A stretch of 64,000 nucleotides of DNA from Halorientalis litorea (GTDB lineage Archaea; Halobacteriota; Halobacteria; Halobacteriales; Haloarculaceae), in contig NZ_CP095482.1 of NCBI RefSeq assembly GCF_023028225.1, positions 1,426,001-1,490,000 on the forward strand. Direction: 5' to 3'. The notes under the pieces are model-generated. The model worked only from the letters and a program-made list of their open reading frames with translations. It was not told the DNA's origin and made no database searches. Positions 4,488 to 63,387 of this stretch are shown here, piece after piece (the stretch's first letter is position 1; each line of letters begins with the position of its first letter). The position numbers were made by a program, and so were the translations under genes.

Positions 4488-4653
4488 CAGGTCCGATGCG
4501 GTGACCCGTCGACAGCCCGTGACGACGGCGGCCGTATCGACGCCCGTTGTACCCCTCCGCTTCGGCTGGAAATACGCCTGACAGCGACCGCTCCGCATCT
4601 CCATCGGAACCCGTGATATCTCGTGTCACAGTTCGAGACAACGAAGAAACACG

Positions 4654-36295: not shown

Positions 36296-38860
36296 ATGGC
36301 AGCGACCGACGAGGTCGAACACGTCACGCACCCGTTGCTGGCCGACGGGATGCTGGAGCGGCGGGGCTACCAGTCGACGCTCTCCGACGCCGCGAGCGAC
36401 GCCCACACGCTGGTCTGTCTCCCGACTGGCCTCGGGAAAACGACCGTCTCCCTGCTCGTGACCGCCGACCGCCTCCACGAAGCGGGCGGAACGGCACTCT
36501 TTCTCGCGCCGACGAAACCGCTCGTCCAACAGCACGCCGAGTTCTACCGCGAGGCCCTGACGATTCCCGACGAGGAAATCGTCGTGTTCACCGGCGAGGT
36601 CCGCCCCGACGACCGGGCCGAGTTGTGGGCGGATGCACGGGTCGTCATCGCGACACCGCAGGTCGTCGAGAACGACCTCGTGGGCAACCGCATCTCGCTC
36701 GCGGCCGTGACACATCTCACCTTCGACGAGTGTCACCGCGCGAGCGGCGACTACGCCTACAACTACATCGCAGAGCGGTACCACGCCGACGCGCGGGACC
36801 CGCTGGTGACGGGGATGAGTGCCTCCCCCGGCGGCGACGAGGAAGCTATCCTGCAGGTCTGTGAGAACCTCGGCATCGAGGAAGTCGAGGTGATGACCGA
36901 GGACGACGCCGACGTGGCCGAGTACACCCACGACACCGAACTGGAGTGGAAGCGGGTGGAACTCCCCGAGGAAGTGCTGGAGGTGCGGGACGCCCTGAAC
37001 GACGTGATTTCCGACCGACTGGGGAAACTCAAGGAGATGGGCGTCACCGGCAAGACGAGCCCCGACCTCTCGGAGAAGGAGTTGGTCCGGATACAGGGGA
37101 AGTTGCGGGAGTTGATGGACAACGACCAGTCGGAGGGGTACAAGGGGATGAGCCTCCACGCCGAGATTCGGAAACTGAACACGGCGGTCAACTACGTCGA
37201 GACACAGAGTGTCGAGTCCCTGCGGCGGTACTTCGAGCGGTTGAAGCAGGCCGCCCGCGCCTCGGGAGCCTCGAAGGCCGACCAGCGACTCGTCAGCGAC
37301 CCCAAGGTTCGCGAGGCGATGCGTCGGGCCGAGGCGTACGACGACTTGCACCCGAAGTTCCGGCAGGCGCGCATCCTCCTCGCCGAGACGCTGGGGCTGA
37401 ACGACGGCGAGCGCGTCATCGTCTTCACCGAGTCCCGTGACACCGCCGAGACGCTGACGGACTTCCTGGGCGAACACTTCGAGACGCGGAAGTTCGTCGG
37501 GCAGAGCGACACCGAGGGCAGCGACGGGATGACCCAGACTCAACAACAGGAGACGCTGGACGCCTTCCGCGCGGGCGAGTTCGAGGTACTCGTCTCCACG
37601 TCCGTCGCCGAGGAGGGACTCGACGTGCCCGAAGTCGACTTGGTGCTGTTCTACGAACCCGTCCCGACGGCGATTCGGTCCATCCAGCGGAAGGGCCGGA
37701 CCGGCCGCCAGACGGAGGGACAGGTGGTCGTCCTGCTGGCCGAGGACACCCGAGACGAGGCGTACTTCTGGAAGTCCCGCAACGACGAGAAGCGGATGGA
37801 GCGGGAACTCCGCGAGTTGAAGTCGGCGGCGAGCGACATCGAGGCCGACCTCGTCGAACAGACCGACGTGGACGATTACGCTGACGGGGCCGATGGCGAC
37901 GAGGGTGGAGACGAAGACGAGGGCGGACGGAGTAACGGTACCGCCGACGACGCCGAGACACAGGGGGGAAGTGAAAGTGGTCGCGGTGACGGCGATTCGG
38001 GAGACGGCGACGGGACTGCACGTGAAACAGGGGGGTGCGACGCAGGCAACGGTGACCGACCCGCAACCGGACAGTCCGGTCTGGAAGCGTTCGCCGGGGA
38101 CGACGGGACAGCGGGGAGCGGCGGAGGCGGTTCCAGTGGAAACGGTGCGGGCGAGGAGGCACACGGCGACCCCGAGGGCGTCGTCGCCGAGGCGGACCCG
38201 GCGGGCGAGACTGTCGAAGTCGTGGCCGACCAGCGCGAGTTGGACTCGACCATCGCGCGTGATCTCTCGACGCGGGACGGCATCGAGACGCGTCTGGAGA
38301 CACTGGCCGTCGGGGACTACGTCCTCTCGGACCGGGTCGTCATCGAACGCAAGACAGTCGGCGACTTCCTCGACACGCTCACCGGGGGTGACCGGTCGAT
38401 GTTCGAGCAGGTCGGCGACGCGGGCCGCCACTACGCCCGGCCGGTCGTGATTCTCGAAGGGTCGGACCTCTACGGGCGGCGCAACGTCCATCCCAACGCC
38501 ATCCGGGGCGCGCTCTCGGCACTGGTGGTCGACTTCGGCGCGAGCGTCCTCCGCACCGAGGGTGCCGACGAGACGGCGGACCTGTTGGAGGTCATCGCCA
38601 CGCGCGAACAGGAAGACGAGGACCGCGAAGTGAGCGTCCACGGCGAGAAGTCCGCGAAGACGCTGGCCGAACAACAGGAGTACGTCGTCGCGTCCGTCGC
38701 GGAAGTCGGCCCGGTAACGGCACGCTCCCTGCTGGCACACTTCGGGAGCGTCGAGGCGGTGATGACCGCCGACGCGGATGCCCTCCGCGAGGTGTCCGGC
38801 GTCGGCGAGGTGACGGCCGACCGCATCCGCGACGTGGTGGGCAGCGACTACGACGCCTGA
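36296..38860 (+). CDS. hef: Hef helicase/nuclease (FANCM-XPF family)
   Basis: An 854-residue protein that processes stalled forks. N-terminal SF2 helicase: Walker A PTGLGKTT (43-50), DECH box (144-147), SMSASP-like motif GMSASPGG, and motif VI region SIQRKGRTGRQ. C-terminal XPF-type nuclease: catalytic ERK at 684-686 in VIERKTVGDFLD, then tandem HhH motifs (about 790-850). A long Gly/Asp-rich linker (about 530-640) joins them. In haloarchaea Hef acts at arrested forks and is an alternative to Hjc resolvase. The linker DNA contains two ORB-like sequences (38019 and 38129). Monocistronic. Confidence 0.96.
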   Translation: MAATDEVEHVTHPLLADGMLERRGYQSTLSDAASDAHTLVCLPTGLGKTTVSLLVTADRLHEAGGTALFLAPTKPLVQQHAEFYREALTIPDEEIVVFTGEVRPDDRAELWADARVVIATPQVVENDLVGNRISLAAVTHLTFDECHRASGDYAYNYIAERYHADARDPLVTGMSASPGGDEEAILQVCENLGIEEVEVMTEDDADVAEYTHDTELEWKRVELPEEVLEVRDALNDVISDRLGKLKEMGVTGKTSPDLSEKELVRIQGKLRELMDNDQSEGYKGMSLHAEIRKLNTAVNYVETQSVESLRRYFERLKQAARASGASKADQRLVSDPKVREAMRRAEAYDDLHPKFRQARILLAETLGLNDGERVIVFTESRDTAETLTDFLGEHFETRKFVGQSDTEGSDGMTQTQQQETLDAFRAGEFEVLVSTSVAEEGLDVPEVDLVLFYEPVPTAIRSIQRKGRTGRQTEGQVVVLLAEDTRDEAYFWKSRNDEKRMERELRELKSAASDIEADLVEQTDVDDYADGADGDEGGDEDEGGRSNGTADDAETQGGSESGRGDGDSGDGDGTARETGGCDAGNGDRPATGQSGLEAFAGDDGTAGSGGGGSSGNGAGEEAHGDPEGVVAEADPAGETVEVVADQRELDSTIARDLSTRDGIETRLETLAVGDYVLSDRVVIERKTVGDFLDTLTGGDRSMFEQVGDAGRHYARPVVILEGSDLYGRRNVHPNAIRGALSALVVDFGASVLRTEGADETADLLEVIATREQEDEDREVSVHGEKSAKTLAEQQEYVVASVAEVGPVTARSLLAHFGSVEAVMTADADALREVSGVGEVTADRIRDVVGSDYDA
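38019..38037 (+). repeat. ORB-like sequence in the hef linker, copy 1
   Basis: CACGTGAAACAGGGGGGTG. Shares the CAC-x-TGAAAC core and G-run of the origin ORBs. It lies in low-complexity coding sequence, so chance similarity is possible. Confidence 0.35.
38129..38144 (+). repeat. ORB-like sequence in the hef linker, copy 2
   Basis: GGTTCCAGTGGAAACG matches the GTTCCA and GAAACG parts of the ORB consensus but lacks a long G-run. Confidence 0.35.
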
Positions 38861-38932: not shown

Positions 38933-38956
38933 GTTCCACCGGAAACAGGGGGGTTT
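38933..38956 (+). repeat. ORB-like sequence downstream of hef, copy 1
   Basis: GTTCCACCGGAAAC followed by AGGGGGG. Matches ORB2 of the origin in the GTTCCACC-x-GAAAC part and in the G-run. It lies in the 250-nt non-coding gap (38861-39110) between convergent genes, where no gene is seen. Confidence 0.5.
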
Positions 38957-43660: not shown

Positions 43661-43690
43661 ACCCCCCCACCCCTTCGTTTCGAGTGGAAC
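43661..43690 (-). repeat. ORB1, origin recognition box
   Basis: Minus strand: GTTCCACTCGAAACGAAGGG, then GTGGGGGGGT. Long G-run typical of haloarchaeal ORBs. Inverted relative to ORB2, with which it matches at 28 of 30 positions. Confidence 0.9.
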
Positions 43691-43925: not shown

Positions 43926-43955
43926 GTTCCACCTGAAACGAAGGGGTGGGGGGGT
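43926..43955 (+). repeat. ORB2, origin recognition box
   Basis: GTTCCACCTGAAACGAAGGG, then GTGGGGGGGT; direct orientation, facing away from the AT-rich element. Confidence 0.9.
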
Positions 43956-44370: not shown

Positions 44371-44395
44371 CTCTCCACTCGAAACGGAGGGGTTG
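44371..44395 (+). repeat. ORB3 overlapping the orc1 ribosome-binding site
   Basis: CTCTCCACTCGAAACGGAGG then GGTTG. The GGAGG at 44386-44390 is a perfect Shine-Dalgarno sequence 6 nt before the orc1 ATG. In RNA, CTCTCC (44371-44376) can pair with GGAGGG (44386-44391), closing the Shine-Dalgarno sequence in a hairpin. Confidence 0.75.
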
Positions 44396-44396
44396 T

Positions 44397-46034
44397 ATGA
44401 CTGATACCGGGAACGAATCGGACGGACAAGACGCTGATGCGGGTGTGTCGGAGGAGGGGGACGGACCCGCGGACCAGTCGCCACTCGACGATGTCATGCC
44501 AGAGATATCGGATGTCGACGGGGACGCGGGCGGTACAGGGGGAGACGATACACTCTCACTCGACGAGACGGTTCTCGACGAGATAGACGAGGCCGACGAT
44601 CCGGACGAGGCGTCCCGTGGGTTGTTCGACGACCTCCTGAGCGGCCAGCCTATCTTCGAGAACAAGGAAGTCCTGCGTCCCTCCTACACGCCGCACAAGC
44701 TTCCCCACCGCGAGGAACAGATCAACAACATGGCGACCATCCTCGTGACCGCCTTGCGCGGGGACACACCCTCGAACATCCTCATCTACGGGAAGACGGG
44801 AACGGGGAAGACGGCGAGCGCGAAGTTCGTCTCCGAGGAGTTGGAGACGACTTCACAGAAGTACGAAGTGCCCTGTGAGGTCGAGTACATCAACTGCGAG
44901 GTGACCGACACGCAGTATCGCGTCCTCGCCCAACTGGCAAACAAGTTCATCCAGAAGAACCGCGAGGTCATCGACGACCAGATAGCCCGCCTCGAAAACC
45001 TCCGCGAGCGCGCGGACGAGGACCCCGCCGCCCTCACCGAAACCACCGAGTTCGACGCGCTGGGCGAGTTCGACGACGGGACGGGCATCGAGTCCGTGTC
45101 CGACATCGACGACCGCATCGCTGCACTCGAAACGGACCGCGACGGGTTCGAGGAGGTGCCGATGACGGGGTGGCCGACCGACCGCGTGTACAGCTCCTTC
45201 TTCGACGCCGTGGACTACCACGAACGCGTCGTCGTCATCATGCTCGACGAGATAGACAAACTCGTCGAGAAGTCCGGCGACGACACGCTCTACAACCTCT
45301 CGCGGATGAACTCGGAACTGGAGAAGTCGCGGGTGTCCATCATGGGCATCTCGAACGACCTGAAGTTCACCGACTTCCTCGACCCGCGCGTCAAGTCCAG
45401 CCTCGGCGAGGAGGAAATCGTCTTCCCGCCGTACGACGCCAACCAGTTGCGCGACATCCTCCAGCACCGCGCGGACGTGGCCTTCGAGGCCGATGCCCTC
45501 TCGGAGGACGTCATCCCGCTCTGTGCGGCGTTCGCGGCCCAAGAACACGGGGACGCCCGCCGGGCCTTGGACCTCCTGCGGACCGCGGGCGAACTCGCCG
45601 AACGCGGACAGACCGAACGCGTCGAAGAGGACCACGTTCGCCGGGCACAGGAGAAAATCGAACTCGACCGGGTTGTCGAGGTGGTTCGGACTCTCCCCAC
45701 GCAGTCGAAACTCGTCCTCTTCGCCATCATCCTCTTGGAGAAAAACGGTGTCCAGAACACCAACACGGGCGAGGTGTTCAACATCTACAAACGCCTCTGC
45801 GGCGAGATCGACGCCGACGTGCTGACCCAGCGGCGGGTCACGGACCTCATCTCGGAACTGGACATGCTCGGCATCGTCAACGCCGTCGTCGTCTCGAAGG
45901 GCCGGTACGGGCGGACCAAGGAAATCAGCCTCTCGGTGCCCATCGACGAGACGGAGGCCGTCCTCCTCTCCGACTCACGGCTCGGTGACATCGACGACGT
46001 CCAGCCGTTCGTCCAGGCGCGGTTCGATAACTGA
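44397..46034 (+). CDS. orc1: Orc1/Cdc6 replication initiator
   Basis: A 545-residue initiator that binds ORBs and loads MCM. N-terminal acidic extension (about 1-75), then AAA+ ATPase: Walker A YGKTGTGKT (131-139), Walker B in VVVIMLDEIDKLV, sensor region FTDFLDPRVKSSLG, arginine-finger-type segment GDARRALDLLRTAG, and a C-terminal winged helix (about 445-545). I chose ATG at 44397, not the long open frame upstream, because of the strong Shine-Dalgarno sequence and the acidic start typical of haloarchaeal Orc1-1. It is next to oriC and oap genes, the layout of the main haloarchaeal origin. ORB3 overlaps its ribosome site, suggesting autoregulation. Confidence 0.96.
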   Translation: MTDTGNESDGQDADAGVSEEGDGPADQSPLDDVMPEISDVDGDAGGTGGDDTLSLDETVLDEIDEADDPDEASRGLFDDLLSGQPIFENKEVLRPSYTPHKLPHREEQINNMATILVTALRGDTPSNILIYGKTGTGKTASAKFVSEELETTSQKYEVPCEVEYINCEVTDTQYRVLAQLANKFIQKNREVIDDQIARLENLRERADEDPAALTETTEFDALGEFDDGTGIESVSDIDDRIAALETDRDGFEEVPMTGWPTDRVYSSFFDAVDYHERVVVIMLDEIDKLVEKSGDDTLYNLSRMNSELEKSRVSIMGISNDLKFTDFLDPRVKSSLGEEEIVFPPYDANQLRDILQHRADVAFEADALSEDVIPLCAAFAAQEHGDARRALDLLRTAGELAERGQTERVEEDHVRRAQEKIELDRVVEVVRTLPTQSKLVLFAIILLEKNGVQNTNTGEVFNIYKRLCGEIDADVLTQRRVTDLISELDMLGIVNAVVVSKGRYGRTKEISLSVPIDETEAVLLSDSRLGDIDDVQPFVQARFDN

Positions 46035-46941: not shown

Positions 46942-48552
46942 GTGCCACTGGAGACGCCGGTCCGCATCGTCGGGGTCCTCGCCGAACGAGGCTACAACGC
47001 CGAACGCGAGGCCGTCACGCTGCTGGCGGACGCACCGGACCCCGAGCACGCGCTCGAACGCGCACTCGAAACGGTCCCGGACGACACGCTCGTCCTCTCC
47101 ACCGCTCACGTCAGAACCGTTCTCGACGCCGAAGGAGCCGCCAACGCAACCGAAACAACTCAACCGTCGAAGTCGGACGGACCCACTGACACGCCACACC
47201 CGGACCCCTCCGTTTCGACTGGAGGCGAACCACCTGAACCGACCGAAGACGGGGGTGTCGCTCCAGTCGAAACGGAGGGGGGAACGGCCGTCGTCGACGG
47301 TCCCACTCGGACTGGGGGGCGCGCCATCGACACGTCGAAACAGGCTCTCGACGTGGTGGACGGGTTGACACACTCGACGGGGACCGGCGAGTACCGTGAT
47401 TTCGTCTCCGTCTTCCGGGACCGCTACGAGAAGTTGTCGGGCCAGTTGCGCGGCCGCGTGAACCACCGCCCGACGGACACGCTGTCGGCGATGACGGGCG
47501 GCAGTGAGGCGGCTATCGTCGGGATGGTTTCGGACATCCGCTCGACGGCCAGCGGCCACTGGCTGGTCGAACTGGAGGACACGAACGGGACCTACCCCTG
47601 TCTCGTGATGAAGGACCGCGACATCGCCGACCTCGTGGGCGAACTGCTCCACGACGAGGTTATCGCCGTCGAGGGGACGCTCTCGGACGACAACACCGAC
47701 GGGGACGGCATCCTGTTCGTCGACGACATCCACTTTCCAGAAATCCCACGAACGTACCAGCCCTCGACCGCGGACCGTGCAGTCAGTGCCGCCCTCGTCA
47801 GCGACGTCCACGTCGGGAGTCAGGAGTTCATGGCCGAGGCGTGGCACCGTTTTACCGACTGGCTCCACACCGACGAGGCCGAGGGCGTCGAGTACCTACT
47901 CCTTGCGGGCGACATGGTAGAAGGCGTCGGCGTCTACCCGGACCAGGACGAGGAACTCGACATCGTCGACATCTACGACCAGTACCGGGCGTTCTCGGAA
48001 CACCTCAAGGAGGTCCCCGGGGACATGGAAATCGTGATGATACCGGGCAACCACGACGCCGTCCGCCTCGCCGAGCCACAACCGCCCTTCGACGAGGAGT
48101 TGCGCGACATCATGTCGGCCCACGACTGCCGCATCAGCGCGAACCCCTCGACGGTGGACGTGGAGGGCGTCTCCGTGCTGATGTACCACGGCGTCTCGCT
48201 GGACGAGGTCATCGCGGAACTCCCCGACGACAAGGCCAGTTACGACGAGCCACACCGCGCGATGTCGCACCTCCTGAAGAAACGCCACGTCGCCCCGCAG
48301 TTCGGCGGCCACACCCGCCTCGCACCCGAAGCGGCGGACCACCTCGTCATCGAGGAGGTGCCGGACGTGTTCCACAGCGGCCACGTCCACAAGTTCGGCT
48401 ACGGTACCTACCACAACGTCCTGACCATCAACTCCGGGTGTTGGCAGGCCCAGACCGAGTTCCAGAAGAGCGTCAACATCGACCCGGACACCGCGATGGC
48501 TCCGATTCTCGACCTCCAGAACCTCGAACTGACGATTCGGAAGTTCGCCTGA
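46942..48552 (+). CDS. polB: DNA polymerase D small subunit (DP1), 3'-5' exonuclease
   Basis: The 536-residue proofreading and scaffold subunit of PolD. N-terminal domain (about 1-70), a long disordered linker (about 72-135), an OB fold (about 175-265), and an Mre11-like phosphodiesterase: SDVHVGS, AGDMVEG, PGNHD, MYHGVS and HSGHVHKFG metal-ligand motifs, all intact. GTG at 46942 gives MPLETPVRIVG. The linker DNA contains a perfect inverted pair of 20-nt ORB-like sequences (47205-47224 and 47261-47280). Its partner is the intein-bearing DP2 at 25469. Confidence 0.96.
   Translation: MPLETPVRIVGVLAERGYNAEREAVTLLADAPDPEHALERALETVPDDTLVLSTAHVRTVLDAEGAANATETTQPSKSDGPTDTPHPDPSVSTGGEPPEPTEDGGVAPVETEGGTAVVDGPTRTGGRAIDTSKQALDVVDGLTHSTGTGEYRDFVSVFRDRYEKLSGQLRGRVNHRPTDTLSAMTGGSEAAIVGMVSDIRSTASGHWLVELEDTNGTYPCLVMKDRDIADLVGELLHDEVIAVEGTLSDDNTDGDGILFVDDIHFPEIPRTYQPSTADRAVSAALVSDVHVGSQEFMAEAWHRFTDWLHTDEAEGVEYLLLAGDMVEGVGVYPDQDEELDIVDIYDQYRAFSEHLKEVPGDMEIVMIPGNHDAVRLAEPQPPFDEELRDIMSAHDCRISANPSTVDVEGVSVLMYHGVSLDEVIAELPDDKASYDEPHRAMSHLLKKRHVAPQFGGHTRLAPEAADHLVIEEVPDVFHSGHVHKFGYGTYHNVLTINSGCWQAQTEFQKSVNIDPDTAMAPILDLQNLELTIRKFA
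47205..47224 (-). repeat. ORB-like repeat A inside the DP1 gene
   Basis: Minus strand CTCCAGTCGAAACGGAGGGG, identical to repeat B. Falls in linker codons about 88-95. Confidence 0.8.
47261..47280 (+). repeat. ORB-like repeat B inside the DP1 gene
   Basis: CTCCAGTCGAAACGGAGGGG, a 20-nt perfect inverted copy of repeat A, 36 nt apart. Shares the core CGAAACGGAGGGG with ORB3. Confidence 0.8.
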
Positions 48553-63255: not shown

Positions 63256-63328
63256 AGTCCATTGGGGTAGTGGCCAATCCTGAAGCCTTCTGGGGGCTTC
63301 GACCCTGGTTCGAATCCAGGATGGACTA
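63256..63328 (+). tRNA. tRNA-Gln (anticodon CTG)
   Basis: A 73-nt intronless gene. The acceptor stem AGTCCAT/ATGGACT pairs over 7 bp; the T arm is CCTGG-TTCGAAT-CCAGG; the anticodon arm is AAGCC-TTCTGGG-GGCTT with anticodon CTG. The discriminator is A, with no encoded CCA. The A1-U72 first pair is typical of archaeal tRNA-Gln recognised by the GatDE amidotransferase. Confidence 0.93.
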
Positions 63329-63387
63329 CTTCTCGGACGCTGACCGGCCAGTCACGACGCCGGGTCCCGGTATCGGTCCGCTCTGGT

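Follow-up and report, generated by a model that had tools for sequence, protein, structure and literature searches.

Sites for replication initiators inside and outside origins

The haloarchaeal origin oriC1 consists of inverted ORBs that carry a G-string, flank an AT-rich element and lie beside the orc1/cdc6A gene. In Haloarcula hispanica, mutation of either G-string abolishes oriC1 activity (PMC3936714). The same study describes oriC2D, a group of 11 ORBs located downstream of cdc6E that restrain oriC2 (PMC3936714). A precedent for an archaeal Orc1-family protein acting as a transcription regulator is found in the Sulfolobales, where Orc1-2, a non-initiator Orc1, regulates DNA-damage-responsive transcription (PMC9738581). 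In E. coli, initiator boxes are likewise found outside the origin, at the dnaA promoter and at datA, where they are used for autoregulation or titration.

The element described here, a pair of ORBs within the gene for the small subunit of the polD polymerase (DP1), resembles each of these systems in part. It was analysed in a window of 64,000 nucleotides from Halorientalis litorea, in which it lies 3.5 kb from oriC1. Both elements share the ORB core, the inverted arrangement and the outward orientation of the G ends, whereas the DP1 pair lacks the G-string and the AT-rich element, is coding, and keeps a nearly fixed spacing of 57 nt in place of the 180-425 nt observed at oriC1. With oriC2D it shares the presence of ORBs that are not part of an origin but lie close to one, on the downstream side of the initiator gene. 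Unlike oriC2D, which is intergenic, has many copies and belongs to the oriC2/Cdc6E system, it comprises two boxes in fixed geometry that reside in a polymerase gene and occur class-wide; instead of following the initiator gene directly as a large ORB cluster, the two boxes are separated from orc1 by another gene. Orc1-2 is a dedicated non-initiator paralogue, while the DP1 sites have the ORB type that belongs to the initiator itself and are placed inside a gene. The E. coli elements have in common with the DP1 pair the presence of initiator boxes outside the origin, and differ in being bacterial. To our knowledge, there is no known case of a replicative polymerase gene that carries initiator boxes as conserved coding sequence. 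A keyword search of the surveys and experimental papers available revealed no description of ORBs in DP1 (PMC3528665, PMC3936714, PMC4010727, PMC4441112, PMC4595724, PMC7776575). The published origin predictions among them consider intergenic DNA only (PMC3528665, PMC4595724), and the DP1 element is therefore invisible to them.

The oriC1 region and the DP1 boxes

The window is haloarchaeal and the closest relatives of its DP1 belong to Halorientalis. The gene order is oriC1, orc1, a signal peptidase gene on the opposite strand (sec11) and DP1. The orc1/cdc6 gene of oriC1 (44397-46034, plus strand) encodes a protein with AAA+, Cdc6 lid and winged helix domains (PF09079, PF22703), the presumed ligand of the DP1 boxes. 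Within oriC1, the left ORB with its G-string, TCCACTCGAAACGAAGGGGTGGGGGGG, occupies 43670-43688 on the minus strand and the right one, TCCACCTGAAACGAAGGGGTGGGGGGG, 43928-43946 on the plus strand, with AT-rich DNA between them. A third ORB, devoid of G-string and of the same class as the DP1 boxes, lies at 44374-44392 (plus strand) and ends 4 nt before the orc1 ATG. Upstream of oriC1, the segment 41567-42241 (minus strand) is matched by Pfam to the origin-associated protein OapC.

The DP1 gene (46942-48552, plus strand) encodes an OB fold and a calcineurin-like phosphoesterase domain (PF04042, PF00149). Its boxes are located in the variable linker that connects the N-terminal domain to the OB fold, in codons for the residues DPSVSTGG...APVETEGG. 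The sequence CTCCAGTCGAAACGGAGGGG is present at 47205-47224 on the minus strand (minus box) and again at 47261-47280 on the plus strand (plus box), forming a perfect inverted repeat with 0 mismatches and 57 nt from start to start; each copy scores 30.8 bits on a weight matrix of ORBs from the oriC1 side. The 36-nt spacer (47225-47260) is kept in length, variable in sequence and not AT-rich. The ORB at 44380-44392, directly upstream of orc1, has precisely the same core as the boxes, CGAAACGGAGGGG. The DP1 boxes show the TCCANNNGAAACRRRGGGG core of oriC1-type ORBs, which is followed by a trailing T; in the window this T is present in the minus box, as the complement of A47204, and the plus box has a G in its place. 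The minus box lacks the G-string, and the plus box the T-G-string extension. Re-examination of the sequence thus upheld the original prediction in its coordinates, sequence, spacing and core identity with the third ORB.

The same prediction held that such a pair is unlikely to arise by chance, and the counts bear this out. The window contains five matches to the 20-mer with up to 3 mismatches, against 0.02 expected from dinucleotide shuffles. Pattern searches of the 3.21-Mb genome for exact copies of TCCASTCGAAACGRAGGGG gave no more than four, of which two belong to oriC1/orc1 and two to DP1, and 0 for the reversed control; comparable sequences are also rare elsewhere in DP1 genes.

Conservation and history among the haloarchaea

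Conservation was assessed in 80 haloarchaeal DP1 loci plus the window, which provided 78 usable DP1 genes. The weight matrix was derived from 188 ORBs situated upstream of DP1 in the sampled loci, that is, from the oriC1 side only, and a box was called at 15 bits or more. At this threshold the plus box is present in 71 of the 78 genes and both boxes in 51, always with a constant place in the linker and a constant reading frame, while only 6 of 240,066 other sequence windows of the sampled DP1 genes reach 15 bits. Boxes in orthologous linkers, proposed at the outset as a check, are thereby found across the class. Both boxes can be scored in 58 genes, and 54 of these keep a spacing of exactly 57 nt, even as the distance of the boxes from the DP1 start takes 34 different values in these 58 genes (206-497 nt) and the linker outside the boxes is hypervariable. 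The conserved footprint comprises the ORB with its trailing T (90% of minus boxes, 75% of plus boxes) and little else, spacer and flanks being near background. Position by position, the information content of the DP1 boxes correlates with that of the oriC1 ORBs (r=0.96 and 0.87). Together with the score of 30.8 bits on a matrix made from the oriC1 side, this strongly supports their predicted identity as ORBs, specifically of the oriC1 type.

An exact two-box pattern was found in 116 of 391 haloarchaeal genomes, representing 36 of 86 genera, with 0 matches for its reversed control in the same genomes; the 30% rate per genome results from the exactness of the pattern and is not a real absence elsewhere. 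All 30 loci sampled from these matches fall within DP1, and a stricter pattern likewise gave 30/30. Among the matches listed for the two-box pattern, the spacings are 54, 57 or 69 nt. Helical phasing was considered as an explanation of the spacing: 54, 57, 69, 72 and 75 nt are seen and 60-66 nt are absent among the matches listed, but no single phase fits these values, and phasing is not claimed.

No mini-ORB is detected in 20 outgroup DP1 genes of the same phylum, and the pair is absent from the sampled DP1 genes of a Halorutilales-like group. On this distribution, the pair was probably gained within the haloarchaea. The DP1 gene labelled Halocatena pleomorpha (L085) groups with the Halorutilales-like genes and has no boxes, unlike that of Halocatena marina (L031). 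The minus box has been degraded repeatedly, mostly in Haloferacaceae and Halobacterium species, and both boxes have been lost in Hbt. salinarum. DP1 usually lies about 3-5 kb from oriC1. Where the gene has been relocated it keeps its boxes, at distances from oriC1 of about 13 kb (L051), 17 kb (L083) and 78 kb (L029); in a further genome (G467) the boxes are found in a gene verified as DP1 at about 130 kb from oriC1.

Constraint acts on the DNA letters of the linker

A linker evolving under DNA-level constraint had been proposed from the sequence of the window, and three tests agree on it. When each box was compared with synonymous recodings of its own peptide, every scorable box scored better at p<0.05 (58/58 minus, 73/73 plus). 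Codon choice is nearly invariant in the boxes, with ACT used in 49/49 cases (0.11 expected), CCA in 61/62 (0.13) and GAA in 73/73 (0.33), followed by GTT at 0.98 (0.09), GGA at 0.95 (0.12) and GGG at 0.93 (0.27); these fixed codons are mostly uncommon in the rest of DP1, and variation occurs mainly at the degenerate positions of the ORB. Counts of this kind are inflated by common ancestry, for which gene-wide columns of equal descent served as the control. Finally, four-fold codon identity between diverged DP1 pairs reaches 0.89 in the boxes versus 0.54 gene-wide. Because recoding, codon choice and four-fold identity coincide, it is strongly supported by sequence comparison that selection maintains the DNA letters of the boxes beyond the peptide that they encode.

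Two explanations that dispense with a DNA-binding protein were weighed against these data. The conserved entity might be the peptide, or a run of rare codons slowing translation at a domain boundary, with the ORB match as a by-product; the constant frame of the boxes and the recurrence of the peptides PSVSTG and PVETxG among DP1 genes speak in its favour. Nevertheless, the match is lost upon recoding of the same peptide, codons vary chiefly where the ORB itself is degenerate, and the charge of the encoded residues changes (E/K/G) while the ORB persists. The motif is moreover read on opposite strands in the minus and plus boxes and its trailing T is conserved too, which makes this explanation highly improbable, and the recoding and codon tests led to its rejection. 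A hairpin in the DP1 transcript would account for the perfectly complementary 20-nt arms of the window. Across 58 genes, however, arms from the same gene match at 15.34 of 19 positions and arms from different genes at 15.25 of 19 (P=0.26). This lack of compensatory changes or covariation between the arms leaves the hairpin with almost no credibility, and it was likewise rejected.

The G-string largely separates origin from non-origin ORBs

With site choice blind to G-string content, the ORBs of the region fall into two forms. An oriC1 pair was recognisable at 49 loci, and each of its two ORBs carries the G-string in 49/49 cases; in the further plus-strand ORB that precedes orc1 this string occurs in 0/48. 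The DP1 boxes carry it in 1/51 minus and 5/71 plus cases, and thus nearly always lack the extended G-string of the halophile ORBs. Of 48 whole genomes, 46 yielded the G-string form, with only one or two copies in each, which correspond to the oriC1 pair where both were found.

This division bears on the earlier suggestion of a second initiation site. As such, or as a site of MCM loading, the DP1 pair would lie 3.5 kb from oriC1, and it does show the inverted ORBs of a haloarchaeal origin, with G ends outward as at oriC1. Against this stand the missing G-string, which oriC1 activity requires, and the base composition: the AT fraction is 0.366 in the spacer, 0.307 in the flanks and 0.343 in the gene, and no AT-rich unwinding element lies between the boxes. 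In addition, the pair is located inside DP1 with sec11 between this gene and orc1, instead of in intergenic DNA beside orc/cdc6, and it is kept when DP1 lies far from oriC1. A second origin is therefore very unlikely, chiefly because the boxes lack an element essential at oriC1 and because their spacer is not AT-rich.

Other ORB-like sites

ORB-like sequences were observed at several additional places. At least seven genomes, drawn from different families (L174, L178, L180, L193, L196, L197, L198), carry an isolated ORB without G-string within some 50-210 nt on the downstream side of tRNA-Gln(CTG); no ORB accompanies the tRNA-Gln of the window (63256-63329, about 19 kb from oriC1). The window hef gene, coding for a helicase-ERCC4 nuclease near oriC1 (36296-38857), has ORB-like sites in its linker at 38017 (17.7 bits) and 38132 (15.0 bits). 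A site of this kind was seen in about one third of 30 hef genes, with strong examples in L204 (30.4 bits) and L226 (30.8 and 32.1 bits) and others in L184 and L185; the distribution is patchy, and selection on these sites is not established. Just downstream of the window hef, two plus-strand sites are found at 38935 (25.1 bits) and 39069 (20.0 bits), and Haloarcula-type relatives have similar sites at the same place. A further isolated site lies at 4552-4570 on the minus strand (23.8 bits), 39 kb from oriC1. In Haloarcula relatives, a gene for a HAD-like phosphatase situated downstream of DP1 repeatedly contains an ORB-like sequence (L021:9835, L022, L068 and others); this sequence encodes the conserved peptide ETEGVEV and may be peptide-driven.

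A candidate operator inside the polymerase gene

We consider the DP1 pair to be a conserved, non-initiating site for the oriC1-type Orc1 within the DP1 reading frame, which would tie DP1 expression to the level of the initiator; we give this reading a probability of roughly one half. The predicted Orc1 site is probably either an operator or roadblock that makes the expression of DP1, and of orc1, depend on the amount of initiator, or a sink for Orc1. Titration of Orc1 and a link between polymerase expression and initiator had both been suggested from the window, alongside a second initiation site. In the proposed mechanism, two Orc1 monomers would bind the inverted boxes and assemble into a defined complex some 0.3 kb into DP1. 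This complex would act as a downstream operator or roadblock that reduces transcription of DP1 at high levels of free Orc1, and the ORB without G-string just before the orc1 start would exert the same effect on orc1. Initiator and replicative polymerase would in this manner be placed under one negative feedback governed by initiator level, and the complex, by holding back two Orc1 molecules, would be expected to have a modest effect on oriC1. Control of transcription is suggested by the parallel with the orc1-leader ORB. An action on DP1 transcription appears most likely because the other near-constant ORB without G-string sits at the orc1 start, because the boxes follow DP1 when it is relocated, and because a spacing this constant points to a specific complex. 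The degraded minus box of many Haloferacaceae and Halobacterium species and the missing pair in Hbt. salinarum and the Halorutilales-like group weigh against this reading. Since DP1 usually lies about 5 kb or less from oriC1, the boxes may also participate in origin control.

The main rival is an Orc1 sink or initiation-control locus, similar to datA or oriC2D, that would limit oriC1 firing and reside in DP1 only incidentally. ORB clusters outside an origin are reported to hold back a haloarchaeal origin, with titration as the probable cause (PMC3936714), and both the usual distance of 3-5 kb from oriC1 and the absence of the G-string suit such a role. Yet two sites are few compared with the three at oriC1/orc1, a passive sink would need neither fixed spacing nor fixed orientation although 57 nt is kept, and the boxes stay in DP1 after the gene has moved away from oriC1; a sink is thus a serious but rather unlikely explanation. 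It is improbable that the motif is bound instead by another protein, either a paralogous Orc/Cdc6 or a transcription factor with a shared sequence. Haloarchaea do possess several Orc/Cdc6 paralogues (PMC3528665), but the same survey reports ORBs to be specific to each Orc/Cdc6 family, and the DP1 boxes follow the oriC1 family throughout their positional profile.

More broadly, the haloarchaea might possess a class of non-initiating Orc1 operators without G-string, in the orc1 leader, in the DP1 coding sequence and, patchily, in the hef linker and downstream of tRNA-Gln. Through them the initiator would regulate replication genes around its origin, the operator forming an overlapping code in the polymerase gene; we put this forward tentatively, as somewhat short of an even chance. 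The G-string split constitutes a sequence rule that may separate firing from non-firing ORBs and thereby improve origin prediction. The DP1 element is class-wide, lies in an essential polymerase gene and could be removed by synonymous substitutions without altering the protein. Little is known of how archaea match replication capacity to the level of the initiator, a question that the element makes directly testable, and the conservation of its DNA letters hints at a connection, so far unrecognised, between the replication initiator and the replicative polymerase.
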